This document shows, piece by piece, positions 4,521-35,151 of a DNA stretch of 35,804 bases; the first letter of the stretch is position 1, and the number at the start of each line of letters is the position of its first letter. Origin of the DNA: Spirochaetia bacterium (GTDB lineage Bacteria; Spirochaetota; Spirochaetia; PWKH01). Made by a program: the position numbers and the translations under genes. Below the pieces are notes generated by a model. The model was given only the letters and a program-made list of their open reading frames with translations, was not told the DNA's origin and did no database searches. The stretch covers positions 1 through 35,804 of the forward strand of contig JAIPFU010000005.1 in NCBI GenBank assembly GCA_021736505.1, read 5' to 3'.

Positions 4521-6044
4521 ATGCCATTATCTCTAGCTCCCATTAAGACCTTGAATAAGCATTCGTATAAACCTGAGAATAAACCTCAGCCAAAGAATAA
4601 GCTGCTCTTTACCATATCTGAACTGCAGAGCATAATTTCTGGTTCTGAAACTCCTGATAAGAGATTTCCCAGCAATGAACTTCATTATGACGACTTAAAG
4701 AGAGTTAAAATCAATCAAATAACTATTGATTCCAGGATTATATCTGGTGATAATACATTCCAGAAAGGAATAAATAATGCTAGCCCATTGTTTATTCCTT
4801 TACCTGGTTTGCATGTTAATGGTCACAAGTATGTTCCCCAAGCTCTGAATGATGGAGCAGCTGCTTTAGTATCAGAAAATGAATGGCCTGAGTTGCAAAA
4901 GAAAATCCCGGATTATTGGAAGAAAAAAATTCTAGTGGTTCCAGATACTTTAAAGGCTTTGCATGAACTCGCTGCTTATTGGGTAAAGCAGTGCAATATT
5001 AAAAATACTATAGCTGTTACTGGAAGCACCGGTAAAACAACTACTAAAGAGCTCATTTATTCTATCCTTTCTTTGATGGGGCCAACAGTTAAAAATCATG
5101 GAAACCTAAATTCAACCATCGGGCTTCCATTATCAGTATTTACAATGAGACCCAATGATGAGTATGCCGTCTTTGAAATGGGAATTGACCATAAAGGTGA
5201 AATGGAACAGCTTACGAATATATTTCCGCCGGCTTACGGTGTTCTGACAAATATCGGCAATGCTCATTTAGAGTATTTCGGAACTCAACAGAATATTGCC
5301 AGAGAAAAAAGCCGTATTTTTTCGAAAGAGACAATTCAAGGATATACTCATGAGAATAATATATGGAAATCATATATTGAAAGGCTTCGGTCAAAACAGT
5401 TAGAGAGTTTTGGCTTGTCCCGATTTTATGAAAATAGCATGAATTCTGCAGAACCTATCGGTTTGAATGGCTGGAAGTTGAACTATGCTGGCAGGGAAAT
5501 TCAGTTCCCTCTAATTGGAACTCACAATTTGGAGAATGCCTTAGCAGCAATTAGAGTAGCAGAAAATTTTGGAGCTGATGCAGATGACATAAAAAAGGGA
5601 CTTGAACGGGTCAGACCGCTGTTCGGCCGAAGCAGAATTATACATGGACCAGTAACAATCATAGAAGATTGTTATAATGCCAATGAGGAGTCCATGCGGT
5701 CTATATTAAATTATCTCAGTACACTTCACTGGAAAGGTCGGATGGGTCTTATTTTAGGTGATATGAAAGAGCTTGGCTCTGATACAGATAAGGCTCACCG
5801 TATGGTGGGGAAGGCAGTTAGCCTTTTAGCTCCTTCTGCTGTATTCCTGTATGGTAAGGAGATGGAAACAGCTTACAGGCTGCTTAAAGAGAAGAATTTC
5901 ACAAATGAATTAATGTTTACAGATGATATCAGCCTCCTTGAAAAAAAGATTTGTTCTTATAAAAAGAATGGGGATCTTTTTCTCATAAAAGGTTCCCGAG
6001 CAATGGGACTTGAACGGCTGGTCGGTTGTTTGAGAAGTGCATGA
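4521..6044 (+). CDS. murF: UDP-N-acetylmuramoyl-tripeptide--D-alanyl-D-alanine ligase MurF
   Basis: Mur ligase that adds D-Ala-D-Ala to UDP-MurNAc-tripeptide, the last cytoplasmic step of the peptidoglycan nucleotide precursor. Domain 1 binds the UDP substrate (ITIDSRIISGDNTF, FIPLPG). The central ATPase has the P-loop TGSTGKTTTKE, the FEMGIDHKGE segment and a TNIGNAHLE strand. The C-terminal domain carries DCYNANEESM. An N-terminal extension of about 30 polar residues precedes the first domain. I chose ATG 4521 because GGGAGG (4510-4515) sits five bases upstream; a GTG at 4515 is in frame but lies within that site. The preceding gene stops at 4518, so the spacing is two bases. Confidence 0.95.
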   Translation: MPLSLAPIKTLNKHSYKPENKPQPKNKLLFTISELQSIISGSETPDKRFPSNELHYDDLKRVKINQITIDSRIISGDNTFQKGINNASPLFIPLPGLHVNGHKYVPQALNDGAAALVSENEWPELQKKIPDYWKKKILVVPDTLKALHELAAYWVKQCNIKNTIAVTGSTGKTTTKELIYSILSLMGPTVKNHGNLNSTIGLPLSVFTMRPNDEYAVFEMGIDHKGEMEQLTNIFPPAYGVLTNIGNAHLEYFGTQQNIAREKSRIFSKETIQGYTHENNIWKSYIERLRSKQLESFGLSRFYENSMNSAEPIGLNGWKLNYAGREIQFPLIGTHNLENALAAIRVAENFGADADDIKKGLERVRPLFGRSRIIHGPVTIIEDCYNANEESMRSILNYLSTLHWKGRMGLILGDMKELGSDTDKAHRMVGKAVSLLAPSAVFLYGKEMETAYRLLKEKNFTNELMFTDDISLLEKKICSYKKNGDLFLIKGSRAMGLERLVGCLRSA

Positions 6045-31434: not shown

Positions 31435-32622
31435 TTATTTCTCAGAAAACTGTGCTAATTTTTCAAGATAATGATTCACTAATGGATCATTATCATTAAT
31501 TTCATATGCTGCTCTGAAATAGCGGTATGCTTCCTGGTCTTTTCCGACTTTTAATGCTAATATACCAAAATTTGAAATAATTTTAATATTTTCCGGTTCA
31601 ATATGAAGAGCTTTTTTTAATGAAATTTTTGCTTCTTCAAACTTTTCCTGTTCCATTTGGCAAATTGCCAATTCATTAAAAACATCTGCCTGGTCAGTTT
31701 CGTAATCAAGGCAGGAAAGGAATGCCTGTTCCCCCTCACTGAACCTTTCAAGTCTCCGCAAAGCCCAACCTTTTAGAAACCAGGCATTCCAAATGGTTGG
31801 ATGACGTTCTAAATATGAAGCAATCAAATCCAGAGCTTTATCTTCATTCCCAAGTTTAATCATATCATAAGCTTCAGCAAAGATGTCATCATCCGTTGTC
31901 TGCTGATTCAGACGCTGAACAATAGTCTGAACTGAATCTGAACGTTCATCTTCAGGAGAAAGGCCAAGAAACAGTTCAAAATGTTCTTTAGCTTTGGATA
32001 TGTTATTATGTTTAAGATAAAATGAGGCTGCAAAATAATGGGCATCCGGCGAATCAGGATGTTTTTCTATTACTTCCTGGTATATTTGTACGGCTTTTTT
32101 TATGAGGAGTTCATATTCTTTATTATTACGGGTATTCTTATCCTTGTCATCATACTTTTTTAACTGATCTTCATAGACAAAAGCAAGATTCAAAAAAGTT
32201 GTTTCTTCTTCAGGGGCAAGTGTCTTCAGAGCAGAGAAAATCTCTTCAGCTAAAGCATATTCCTTAGATTCTGCTTTTATTATTCCAGTTTTAGTCATTT
32301 CCACTACTAAATTAGGTTGTACTGCGTTGATAAAATTTCTGAAATATTTAATATGACGATGCCCTGGATCATAAGCCAAAATTTTCAGCATTCCAGAGAC
32401 GATCATTTCCCAAGAGAGCTCCTCTAAATCTATACTACTTCTACCGGGAGGTATTTCTACAGGAATAGGAACAGAACTGTCAATAGAAAAATTCCCGATA
32501 GTCTTTTCGAGTTGTTTTGGAATCTGAATATATATTATTGCTGAAAGGGGATCTTGCATCATAAATTTCACCAGTACTCTTTTTTTTCGTGAATCATGAC
32601 AAACTGTAAAATTAAGCATCAT
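31435..32622 (-). CDS. TPR-repeat protein
   Basis: A 395-residue protein without a signal peptide. The first 100 residues are beta-rich and unrecognised (PLSAIIYIQIPKQ, PVEIPPGRSSIDLEELSWE). From about 110 to the end it is mostly tetratricopeptide-like helices: a clear set at about 185-225 (YQEVIEKHPDSPDAHYFAASFYLKHNN) and three or four more at 250-385, with the usual W/L/G/Y/A/F/P spacing and ALHIEPEN-type turns. It is probably a scaffold for protein contacts. It precedes tsaE-tsaB on the same strand, and a link to tRNA modification is only positional. The 6S RNA gene lies directly upstream. Confidence 0.85.
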   Translation of the reverse strand: MMLNFTVCHDSRKKRVLVKFMMQDPLSAIIYIQIPKQLEKTIGNFSIDSSVPIPVEIPPGRSSIDLEELSWEMIVSGMLKILAYDPGHRHIKYFRNFINAVQPNLVVEMTKTGIIKAESKEYALAEEIFSALKTLAPEEETTFLNLAFVYEDQLKKYDDKDKNTRNNKEYELLIKKAVQIYQEVIEKHPDSPDAHYFAASFYLKHNNISKAKEHFELFLGLSPEDERSDSVQTIVQRLNQQTTDDDIFAEAYDMIKLGNEDKALDLIASYLERHPTIWNAWFLKGWALRRLERFSEGEQAFLSCLDYETDQADVFNELAICQMEQEKFEEAKISLKKALHIEPENIKIISNFGILALKVGKDQEAYRYFRAAYEINDNDPLVNHYLEKLAQFSEK

Positions 32623-32658
32623 GATATAACACGGTTTTAGACATTAAAGTTTTTACAT

Positions 32659-32914
32659 AAAAAAACCCGCGATGCCGATCAAGAATAAATCTCTTGAACT
32701 CCATAAGTTCAAGTGGGTTTCTTATTCCCGACATCCTGTTCCAGAAAGACTGGAGCAATTCAACCGGAAAAAACAGAATCCCGATTAGATAGTTTGACCC
32801 AAGAGATTTGTATCTATCCCGTACACCGCAGGCAAAAATTACGTTCTGATATCATGTGGCGGAAATCTCCGAACCGAGTCTGCTTCACTATTCTTGAAGA
32901 ACATTGAAAGCTTA
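32659..32914 (-). ncRNA. ssrS: 6S RNA (RNA polymerase regulator), ends approximate
   Basis: 6S RNA mimics an open promoter and sequesters the housekeeping sigma-RNA polymerase. On the - strand the 5' arm has ATGTTC then TCAAGAATA (32904-32889). The 3' arm has TATTCTTGA then CGGCATC (32679-32687 and 32671-32677). These give a closing stem of 9 bp plus ATGTT/GGCAT, like the E. coli AUGUUC/GGCAUC arms. A 7-bp hairpin CTTGAAC/GTTCAAG (32713-32693) lies 15 bases before CGGCATC, the same spacing I recall for E. coli. A bubble stretch GGAGATTTCCGCCACA resembles the E. coli 5' bubble, and TTCC/GGAA with ACAT/ATGT starts the apical stem. The RNA ends in GCGGG plus seven T. At about 250 bases it is longer than usual (about 185), with the excess in the apical part. 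Confidence 0.78.
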
Positions 32915-32946
32915 TTACGTAAATTTAAGTAAATTCTACGTAATAA
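32912..32946. promoter_or_regulatory. Large inverted repeat at the 6S RNA start
   Basis: TTATTACGTA (32912-32921) and TACGTAATAA (32937-32946) are perfect inverted arms. Inside them AATTT and AAATT extend the stem, with one bulged C at 32936 and an AAGT loop. It overlaps or abuts the expected 6S promoter, so it may be an operator. A 3' hairpin of the upstream coiled-coil gene is the alternative; there is no T tract. The remaining bases to 33065 hold no gene. Confidence 0.6.
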
Positions 32947-33065
32947 AATAATGCATTAATAATTCACATGCAGACAATCAAAAATCCTGTTTCCCTCTCT
33001 TTAGTTTTACAATAAAAAGAAGGATTAGAAAAGGGGAGTCTGCAAAAATTGCGTATGATTAAAAT

Positions 33066-33509
33066 TCAATACAGCGGTTCATCTTCAGCATCGACATTTT
33101 GCGGAGAGCTATTGTTTCGAGAATCATGATTTGTACCATTATTTGTACCATTAATCGTTTCGGCATTCCGCTGTCCCGCTTGACTGCTTTTCTGAGAAGT
33201 TTTCTGTCCCTCAAAATTATTTTTTACTGAATTTTCTTCTGAATTATTCTCAGCGTTTTCTTCATCCGGATTATTAACTGCCAGTCCTTCCAAAAAGTCC
33301 AGTTGATGAAGAGCACTAGTAACTCCCTCTTCTATAAGACGATTATTCTTACTATAATCATTATAAAAGGTTTCAAGCTCTTCATTATGCATTTTAAGAG
33401 ATTCTATCTCATCTTTCAGAGAAGCATTTTCAGTTTTAAGTTTTTCAATTAAAACTACTGCTCTTTTGATTCTCTCTTCCATCAACTGAACTTTTTCTAA
33501 TGTACTCAT
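33066..33509 (-). CDS. Coiled-coil protein, ZapB-like
   Basis: A 147-residue protein. Residues 1-60 form a strong heptad coiled coil (VQLMEERIKRAVVLIEKLKTENASLKDEIESL), much like ZapB or short Zap-type division factors. The second half is low-complexity Asn/Ser/Glu-rich and probably disordered (NGTNNGTN). It follows rplT with three bases between, so it is the last protein gene of the infC-rpmI-rplT unit. The 6S RNA gene comes next; in E. coli ssrS is beside the division gene zapA, an interesting parallel. The function is inferred from the coiled coil and context only. Confidence 0.7.
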   Translation of the reverse strand: MSTLEKVQLMEERIKRAVVLIEKLKTENASLKDEIESLKMHNEELETFYNDYSKNNRLIEEGVTSALHQLDFLEGLAVNNPDEENAENNSEENSVKNNFEGQKTSQKSSQAGQRNAETINGTNNGTNHDSRNNSSPQNVDAEDEPLY

Positions 33510-33512
33510 AGT

Positions 33513-33872
33513 TTATGCCTCTAATGCTTTTTTTGCCTGATCTACTAGTGCAGAAAAAGCTTTTTTATCCTCTATAGCTAAATTAGAAAGTACTTTTCTG
33601 TTAATATCAATTTGAGATTTTTTCAGGCCGTGCATAAACTGTGAATAATTCAATCCTTCGTTTCTTACAGCTGCTGAAATACGAGCTACCCAAAGACGTC
33701 GAAAATCTCTTTTCTTTCTTCTTCTATCTCTATATGCATATTGTCCTGCCTTGGTAACTGCATCTTTTGCAGTTCGGTAATTTGTGCTTCTTCTCCCAAA
33801 ATACCCCTTTGCACTTTTGACAATTTTTTTTCTTTTATTTTTATGTAAAGTTCCATTTACTGCTCTTGGCAT
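33513..33872 (-). CDS. rplT: Large ribosomal subunit protein bL20
   Basis: 119-residue bL20, normal length, with the basic N-terminal extension (KNKRKKIVKSAKGYFGRRSTNYRTAKDAV) that threads into 23S rRNA and the globular domain with RDRRRKKRDFRRLWVARISAA and NYSQFMHGLKK. Essential early in 50S assembly and often an autoregulator of its operon. AGAGGAG precedes the ATG. It is 155 bases downstream of rpmI, a larger gap than usual, containing a strong hairpin. Confidence 0.97.
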   Translation of the reverse strand: MPRAVNGTLHKNKRKKIVKSAKGYFGRRSTNYRTAKDAVTKAGQYAYRDRRRKKRDFRRLWVARISAAVRNEGLNYSQFMHGLKKSQIDINRKVLSNLAIEDKKAFSALVDQAKKALEA

Positions 33873-34387: not shown

Positions 34388-34924
34388 TCAGCTCTTTTTA
34401 GAACGCTTCTGATGGCTCAAAATCATGGACATAAATCGACCTTCCATTTGAGGTCTTCTGTCTAAAGAATAGCCAACTTCCTGTTCATCGAGCTTATCTA
34501 AAACTTTCATCAGAACATCTCTTCCCAGTTCAGTATGGGCCATTTCGCGCCCCCTGAAACGTATAGTAACCTTAACTTTGTTACCAGCATCCAGAAATTC
34601 TCCTACATGCTTTGTTTTAAACTCCAAGTCATGGCTCTCAATTTTAGGCTGCATCCTGATCTCTTTCAATTTAATTTGAGTCTGGTTCTTCTTTGCTTCT
34701 TTTATTTTTTTCTTTTGCTCGTAAATAAATTTTCCATGATCCAGGATTTTACAGACTGGAGGGTTAGCGTTCGGAGCTACCTCAACTAAATCCATTCCAG
34801 CTTCTCTGGAAAGCTCTTTAGCTTTCTGTAAACCTACTATTCCTCTCTGTTCTCCATTATGATCAATAAGCCGTACTTCTCGAGAACGAATTTGATCATT
34901 AATTCTTAAATTCTTAGTGGCCAA
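34388..34924 (-). CDS. infC: Translation initiation factor IF-3
   Basis: 178 residues with the IF-3 N domain (LRINDQIRSREVRLIDHNGEQ, DLVEVAPNANPPVCKILDHGKF), a lysine-rich linker (YEQKKKIKEAKKNQTQIK) and the C domain (KEIRMQPKIESHDLEFK, VTIRFRGREMAH). The open frame runs further upstream, but that part has no family match. I place the start at TTG 34924, four bases after AGGAGG, giving the N terminus MATKNLRIND. Non-ATG starts are normal for infC, since IF-3 discriminates against them to control its own level. The 158-base gap to rpmI contains a small CACCT hairpin. Confidence 0.93.
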   Translation of the reverse strand: MATKNLRINDQIRSREVRLIDHNGEQRGIVGLQKAKELSREAGMDLVEVAPNANPPVCKILDHGKFIYEQKKKIKEAKKNQTQIKLKEIRMQPKIESHDLEFKTKHVGEFLDAGNKVKVTIRFRGREMAHTELGRDVLMKVLDKLDEQEVGYSLDRRPQMEGRFMSMILSHQKRSKKS

Positions 34925-35113: not shown

Positions 35114-35151
35114 AAAAAAAAGGGCACTCGACAAATAATTCAAGTGCCCTT
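35114..35151 (-). terminator. Rho-independent terminator after the aldolase gene
   Basis: On the - strand AAGGGCACTTGA (from 35151 down) pairs with TCGAGTGCCCTT (ending near 35120), with one G-T pair and an 8-base loop, directly followed by a run of eight T (35121-35114). It separates the aldolase gene from the infC promoter. Confidence 0.92.

Follow-up and report, generated by a model that had tools for sequence, protein, structure and literature searches.

A 178-nt 6S RNA gene downstream of rplT and a zapB-like gene in a spirochaete: identity, structure and neighbourhood

6S RNA is a small RNA of about 200 nt that binds and inhibits bacterial RNA polymerase; it is an abundant and stable transcript whose level rises in stationary phase. 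In a 35,804-nt stretch of DNA from a member of the Spirochaetia (contig JAIPFU010000005.1, here called the window), an initial annotation made from the sequence alone had proposed a 6S RNA gene with an enlarged apical domain on the minus strand, between a gene for a coiled-coil protein and a gene for a TPR protein. The locus thus raises the questions whether this RNA is indeed a 6S RNA, where it begins and ends, and how it would be produced from its position among the neighbouring genes, which in our survey (rpmI was left out) follow each other on the minus strand in the order infC, rplT, zapB-like gene, 6S, TPR gene and tsaE. The coordinates of the features discussed below are collected in Table 1.

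Table 1. Positions of the 6S RNA gene, its structural elements and the surrounding features in the window
Feature	Coordinates	Strand	Evidence
6S (SsrS) RNA gene, 178 nt	32660..32837	-	RF00013 complete model; R1 181.7 bits
Closing stem, 5' arm (RNA 5-19)	32819..32833	-	pairs with 32665-32678; 91.6% of cells paired (23 sequences), 8/14 pairs changed on both sides
Internal stem below the bubble, 5' arm AUCUCUUGGG (RNA 31-40)	32798..32807	-	93.4% of cells paired, 2/10 pairs changed on both sides
Central bubble, 5' strand (RNA 41-55)	32783..32797	-	unpaired in the scored structure
Apical stem-loop (RNA 56-123)	32715..32782	-	helices 3-6: 87.6, 72.0, 91.3 and 81.5% of cells paired; 17/22 pairs changed on both sides
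Candidate release hairpin CUUGAAC/GUUCAAG at the 3' side of the bubble	32693..32713	-	95.7% of cells paired, near-invariant
Internal stem, 3' arm UUCAAGAGAU (RNA 140-149)	32689..32698	-	same count as 5' arm
Closing stem, 3' arm (RNA 160-173)	32665..32678	-	same pairing count, 23 sequences
U tract immediately 3' of the closing stem, likely terminus of the RNA	32660..32665	-	T-rich here in relatives
Upstream flank outside the RNA (the additional 77 nt of the initial annotation)	32838..32914	-	unconserved in 5 aligned relatives; unpaired with the 6S body
AT-rich inverted repeat with 15-nt arms (87% complementarity)	32912..32946	.	within the 228-nt gap
zapB-like coiled-coil gene	33066..33509	-	PF06005 28.6 bits, below the cut-off of 31.5
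rplT (ribosomal protein L20)	33513..33872	-	PF00453 150.4 bits
TPR protein gene, starts 37 nt after 6S	31435..32622	-	PF07719 and other TPR families

Identity and extent of the RNA

A search of the window with Infernal and Rfam 15, the check that the initial annotation had proposed, returned a single match in the whole window, to RF00013 at positions 32837 to 32660 of the minus strand. With 70.9 bits it exceeds the gathering score of 46.4 bits (E 3.1e-12 for the window), and neither end of the model is truncated, positions 1-187 of 187 being aligned. The assignment to 6S RNA, the strand and the placement between the coiled-coil (ZapB-like) gene and the TPR gene were therefore correct. The 178-nt RNA folds with -60.7 kcal/mol as compared to a mean of -43.3 for shuffled sequences (z -4.53), and none of 200 shuffles was equally stable. 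The length of the RF00013 match is 172-190 nt (median 179) in 22 close relatives and 130-196 nt (median 182) in the 92 over-threshold matches of a sample from the phylum. The window RNA thus shows a full-model score over the gathering threshold, a rod with closing stem, bubble and apical stem, and a size in the class of about 200 nt. It resembles the RF00013 family in the complete model match, in size, in the closing stem, the bubble and the apical stem, and in the hairpin on the 3' side of the bubble. No essential difference from the family was seen, 178 nt comparing with 187 model positions and with the 184 nt given for E. coli 6S RNA in PMC7641849. We consider the minus-strand segment 32660-32837 to be almost certainly a canonical 178-nt 6S (SsrS) RNA gene of a spirochaete.

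As a 6S RNA gene the window gene is ordinary, and Rfam detects it. Spirochaete 6S RNAs had been called little studied in the initial annotation, which overlooked Borrelia burgdorferi: according to PMC6041397, the 6S RNA of this organism was identified bioinformatically (Barrick et al. 2005), is visible in RNA-seq data and rises in level under the stringent response. It is likewise a spirochaete 6S RNA but belongs to a different lineage, and the two are likened here by description, not by sequence. The window RNA thus adds one more case to an established family, and its gene neighbourhood is familiar too.

The initial annotation had assigned positions 32659-32914 to the RNA and so misplaced its 5' end by 77 nt in the upstream direction. 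When this 256-nt interval is folded to minimum energy, its first 81 nt form small local hairpins and remain unpaired with the 6S body. In an alignment with five relatives (L008, L002, L003, L012 and L011), conservation is continuous from CCTGCGG onwards, where the true closing stem has its base, while the DNA before it is unconserved. This closing stem is formed by GCCUGCGGUGU/GCAUCGCGGGU together with CGG/UCG (RNA positions 5-19 with 160-173) and not with the ATGTTC near 32905 that had been taken for its 5' side. In L008 and L003 the DNA before the 6S RNA is the end of zapA (PF05164), and the RF00013 match opens with the TAA of this gene. Since the upstream DNA is unpaired and unconserved, and since zapA ends at the 5' boundary in L008 and L003, the length of the RNA is about 178 nt, and this is the transcript size to be expected instead of the roughly 250 bases announced before. 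The 3' end probably lies within the U tract after the closing stem; at least six T in 8 nt are present at this site in 18 of 23 close sequences and in 15 of 30 distant ones.

Two other readings of the interval have to be weighed at this point. A 6S RNA enlarged to about 250 nt in its apical domain, some 60 bases longer than that of E. coli, is hard to reconcile with an RF00013 model that ends at 32837 and is complete within 178 nt, a length inside the ranges of both the close relatives and the phylum sample. The additional 77 nt neither pair with the remainder nor show conservation, and the zapA coding region of L008 and L003 stops at the same 5' boundary. The inner helix ATTCTGTT/AACAGGAT, which had been drawn into the apical part, is without covariation: 62.0% of the cells are paired in 23 sequences, a value equalled by 138 of 500 shuffles, and its covariation score was equalled by 396 of 500. 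The interval does hold a 6S RNA, and its 256 nt fold more stably than most shuffles (z -2.52; 2 of 200 equally stable), but we judge an enlarged RNA highly improbable. The claim of enlargement arose because the 5' end was put 77 nt upstream and non-covarying bases were paired, a caution that RNA ends cannot be judged by eye from a single sequence. We give equally little credence to a degenerate, functionless 6S relic. Such a relic would go along with the loss of the usual neighbour zapA from the window, but the RNA scores 181.7 bits with our own model R1, level with the 181.8 bits of the best relative (both are members of R1), and the letters of the closing stem, the bubble and the hairpin are retained. 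A canonical 6S RNA of 178 nt is thus the reading followed below.

Conserved stems and a hairpin competing with the internal stem

Covariation was assessed in two alignments, one of the window and 22 close loci (A4) and one of the window and 35 loci, made up of five close ones and the 30 best-scoring of 107 matching genomes (A2). In A4, 87.7% of the cells of the canonical stems are paired and both partners have changed in 27 of 46 pairs, and none of 500 shuffles reached any of the five measures. All six slid versions of the structure scored far worse than the unslid one, which is somewhat favoured in this comparison as the scored structure derives from the window's own fold. In A2, with 36 sequences of which 30 are distant, 82.3% of the cells are paired and the number of pairs with both partners changed is again 27 of 46 (0 of 500 shuffles). 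This set agrees poorly with the outer apical helices, in which 54-63% of cells are paired. RF00013, the fold and covariation together confirm the proposed 6S layout with bubble and apical stem, and the matches in 22 close relatives and the compensatory changes in 27 of 46 pairs, both of which the initial annotation had named as further tests, were likewise found.

The CTTGAAC/GTTCAAG hairpin pointed out in the initial annotation is present as well. In A4 one of its seven pairs changed on both sides, which was equalled by 77 of 500 shuffles; as the hairpin is nearly invariant, covariation says little about it. Its GUUCAAG strand (139-145) shares positions with the 3' arm (140-149) of the internal stem, so that six of the ten pairs of this stem are incompatible with the hairpin. 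In the partition function of the free RNA, the hairpin pair 128-142 has a probability of 0.79, the competing pairs 38-142 and 36-144 have 0.21 and 0.46, and the compatible pair 34-146 has 0.92. When two fixed structures were compared, the internal stem was favoured, with -52.6 versus -48.5 kcal/mol for the hairpin. Blocking positions 34-46 in silico, as by a 13-nt product RNA, raised the hairpin probability from 0.79 to 0.996. As the hairpin already prevails over the upper internal stem in the free RNA while the fixed structures favour the stem, the switch amounts only to a shift of balance.

Judged from its family, the RNA would mimic an open promoter, bind the RNA polymerase holoenzyme with the housekeeping sigma factor and block the polymerase when growth stops. 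Upon the return of nucleotides, the polymerase is predicted to copy the 5' strand of the bubble into a short product RNA beginning about GUUUGACCCAAGA. The predicted template comprises the 5' arm of the internal stem (31-40) and the bubble strand; with E. coli and B. subtilis as guides, the start of the product RNA is predicted near position 46 or 47. The product RNA would then open the internal stem and thereby free GUUCAAG for pairing with CUUGAAC, and this refolding would eject sigma and then the RNA. In PMC12005410, a hairpin in the central region is described for E. coli 6S RNA upon refolding induced by the product RNA, whereas B. subtilis 6S-1 RNA forms a bulge-collapse helix instead; for E. 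coli, 9-mers are reported there to trigger sigma release and 13-mers RNA release. Because its hairpin competes with the internal stem and a refolding hairpin is reported for E. coli in this source, the window RNA looks E. coli-like in this respect, and we infer that it may refold in the same manner.

Occurrence and gene neighbourhood

In a sample of 392 genomes of the phylum, searched under stricter filters, RF00013 had a match at E 0.001 or better in 107, of which 92 were over the cut-off. Among 41 genomes near G001 it matched 21, with 17 over the cut-off. Five of the 22 close relatives (L011 and L058-L061) lie below the Rfam cut-off. The family model is not sensitive everywhere, given that it found the RNA in only four to five of 14 control genomes. 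R1 matched 23 of the same 41 genomes near G001, so that in the other 18 the 6S RNA is either absent or of a more divergent form. Two 6S matches of R1, G192:C4:89330-89501 and G233:C5:47601-47777, have no RF00013 match; both lie downstream of rplT.

Using the window protein in tblastn, the L20 gene was found upstream of the 6S RNA in all 22 close loci, and also in L062 and L063, whose 6S loci were detected only with R1. For zapA, tblastn with the ZapA proteins of two relatives gave 15 of 22 close loci, and an iterative profile built from the same loci gave 18, adding L047, L055 and L057. In all 18 (L008, L003, L045-L049 and L051-L061), zapA is the gene directly upstream of the 6S RNA and points in the same direction, and in most of them a zapB-like gene precedes the zapA-6S pair. 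In 15 of these 18, the zapA stop codon ends at a point ranging from 4 nt within the 6S match to 11 nt upstream of it; in the remaining three the distance upstream is 29, 57 and 63 nt. The ZapA profile gave no match at the window locus, L002, L012, L011 and L050. Of the two additional loci, L062 has zapA and L063 shows no match to the profile. The Pfam check of zapA (PF05164) at the loci covered L008 and L003; at the genome level, PF05164 has a match in G001 and G003 and none in G002, G005 and G008, for which completeness is not stated.

In the window, a gap of 228 nt separates the zapB-like gene from the 6S RNA. An alignment inspected by eye had suggested a decayed zapA at 32838-33065, a candidate that found no support in protein or DNA comparisons. 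In local protein comparisons with the ZapA of two relatives, the best scores were equalled by 229 and 240 of 500 shuffles; at the DNA level, when the gap was compared with its counterpart in five relatives, 33 to 125 of 300 shuffles were equally good; and phmmer and tblastn with the ZapA of two relatives yielded nothing significant over the window. As a separate observation, the zapA-less window, L002 (5712-5759) and L012 (1433-1482) carry AT-rich inverted repeats with arms of 15-22 nt between the zapB-like gene and the 6S RNA. The zapA-less L011 has a shorter, G+C-rich inverted repeat and L048, with zapA, a shorter AT-rich one (L050 was left out). The TPR protein encoded downstream has seven detected relatives, all of them in spirochaete metagenome assemblies.

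Outside the close relatives the picture changes. In the 30 distant loci L013-L042, taken with roughly 1.5 kb of flanking DNA (less at contig ends), tblastn with the window proteins gave an L20 match in one (L015, on the opposite strand), and the ZapA profile matched in two (L015 and L020), where the gene lies on the opposite strand just downstream of, and convergent with, the 6S RNA. With L20 in one and zapA in two of 30 distant loci, the rplT-zap-6S locus is not phylum-wide.

A ZapB-ZapA-ssrS array, with 6S always immediately after zapA, is described for beta- and gamma-proteobacteria in PMC7641849. The spirochaete locus agrees with it in that zapA and 6S are adjacent and point the same way in 18 of 22 close relatives, where a zapB-like gene mostly precedes the pair. 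It differs in lying downstream of infC and rplT; moreover, the window has a TPR gene and tsaE downstream instead of ygfA/EVE, and is itself without zapA directly upstream of the 6S RNA. Among the literature matches listed, as represented by titles and the starts of abstracts, there was no paper on zapA beside 6S in spirochaetes. The zapB-zapA-6S order known from that proteobacterial array thus extends to most of the close spirochaete relatives, where it stands beside rplT, and the shared order suggests that 6S RNA and division genes have long been linked.

Possible modes of transcription

The 5' end at about 32837 would arise either from a promoter just upstream or by processing of an rplT-zapB transcript. 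A scan of positions 32400-33300 with a crude consensus, which covers sigma-70-type sites only, gave three sites, no excess over the shuffle mean of 3.0. The one site on the minus strand is far upstream, at 33243-33216, and none lies next to the 5' end. By eye, a promoter-like arrangement of TTGATT, 17 nt and TATATT was noticed in L002 (about 5730-5757) and L012 (about 1450-1480), overlapping the inverted repeats there; an inspection of the window by eye for this site gave no clear counterpart.

It is conceivable, though rather unlikely, that the 6S RNA has no promoter of its own and is cut from the 3' part of an infC-rplT-zapB(-zapA) mRNA, in which case its level would follow the transcription of ribosomal and division genes. 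The close contact between the zapA stop-codon end and the 6S match in 15 of 18 relatives speaks for such processing, as does the lack of a promoter-like site beside the 5' end in the window. However, a promoter within the zapA coding region would serve equally well, the 228 nt before the 6S RNA of the window leave room for a promoter, and the scan was coarse and confined to one type of site. We regard as doubtful the more specific proposal that in these spirochaetes the 6S RNA is the 3' product of an infC-rplT-zapB-zapA operon, processed at or inside the zapA stop codon. If it were true, a brake on the polymerase would be made in parallel with the expression of ribosome and division genes, and zapA-less lineages such as that of the window would have needed a separate promoter or have kept the link via zapB. 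This gene context, in which the stop codon of zapA mostly abuts the start of the 6S RNA, makes the mode of transcription testable in spirochaetes.

A minor observation concerns infC. Counted by hand, its start is probably a TTG after AAAGGAGG near 34924 on the minus strand and not the listed ORF start at 35143, because the preceding 73 residues match no IF3 domain.
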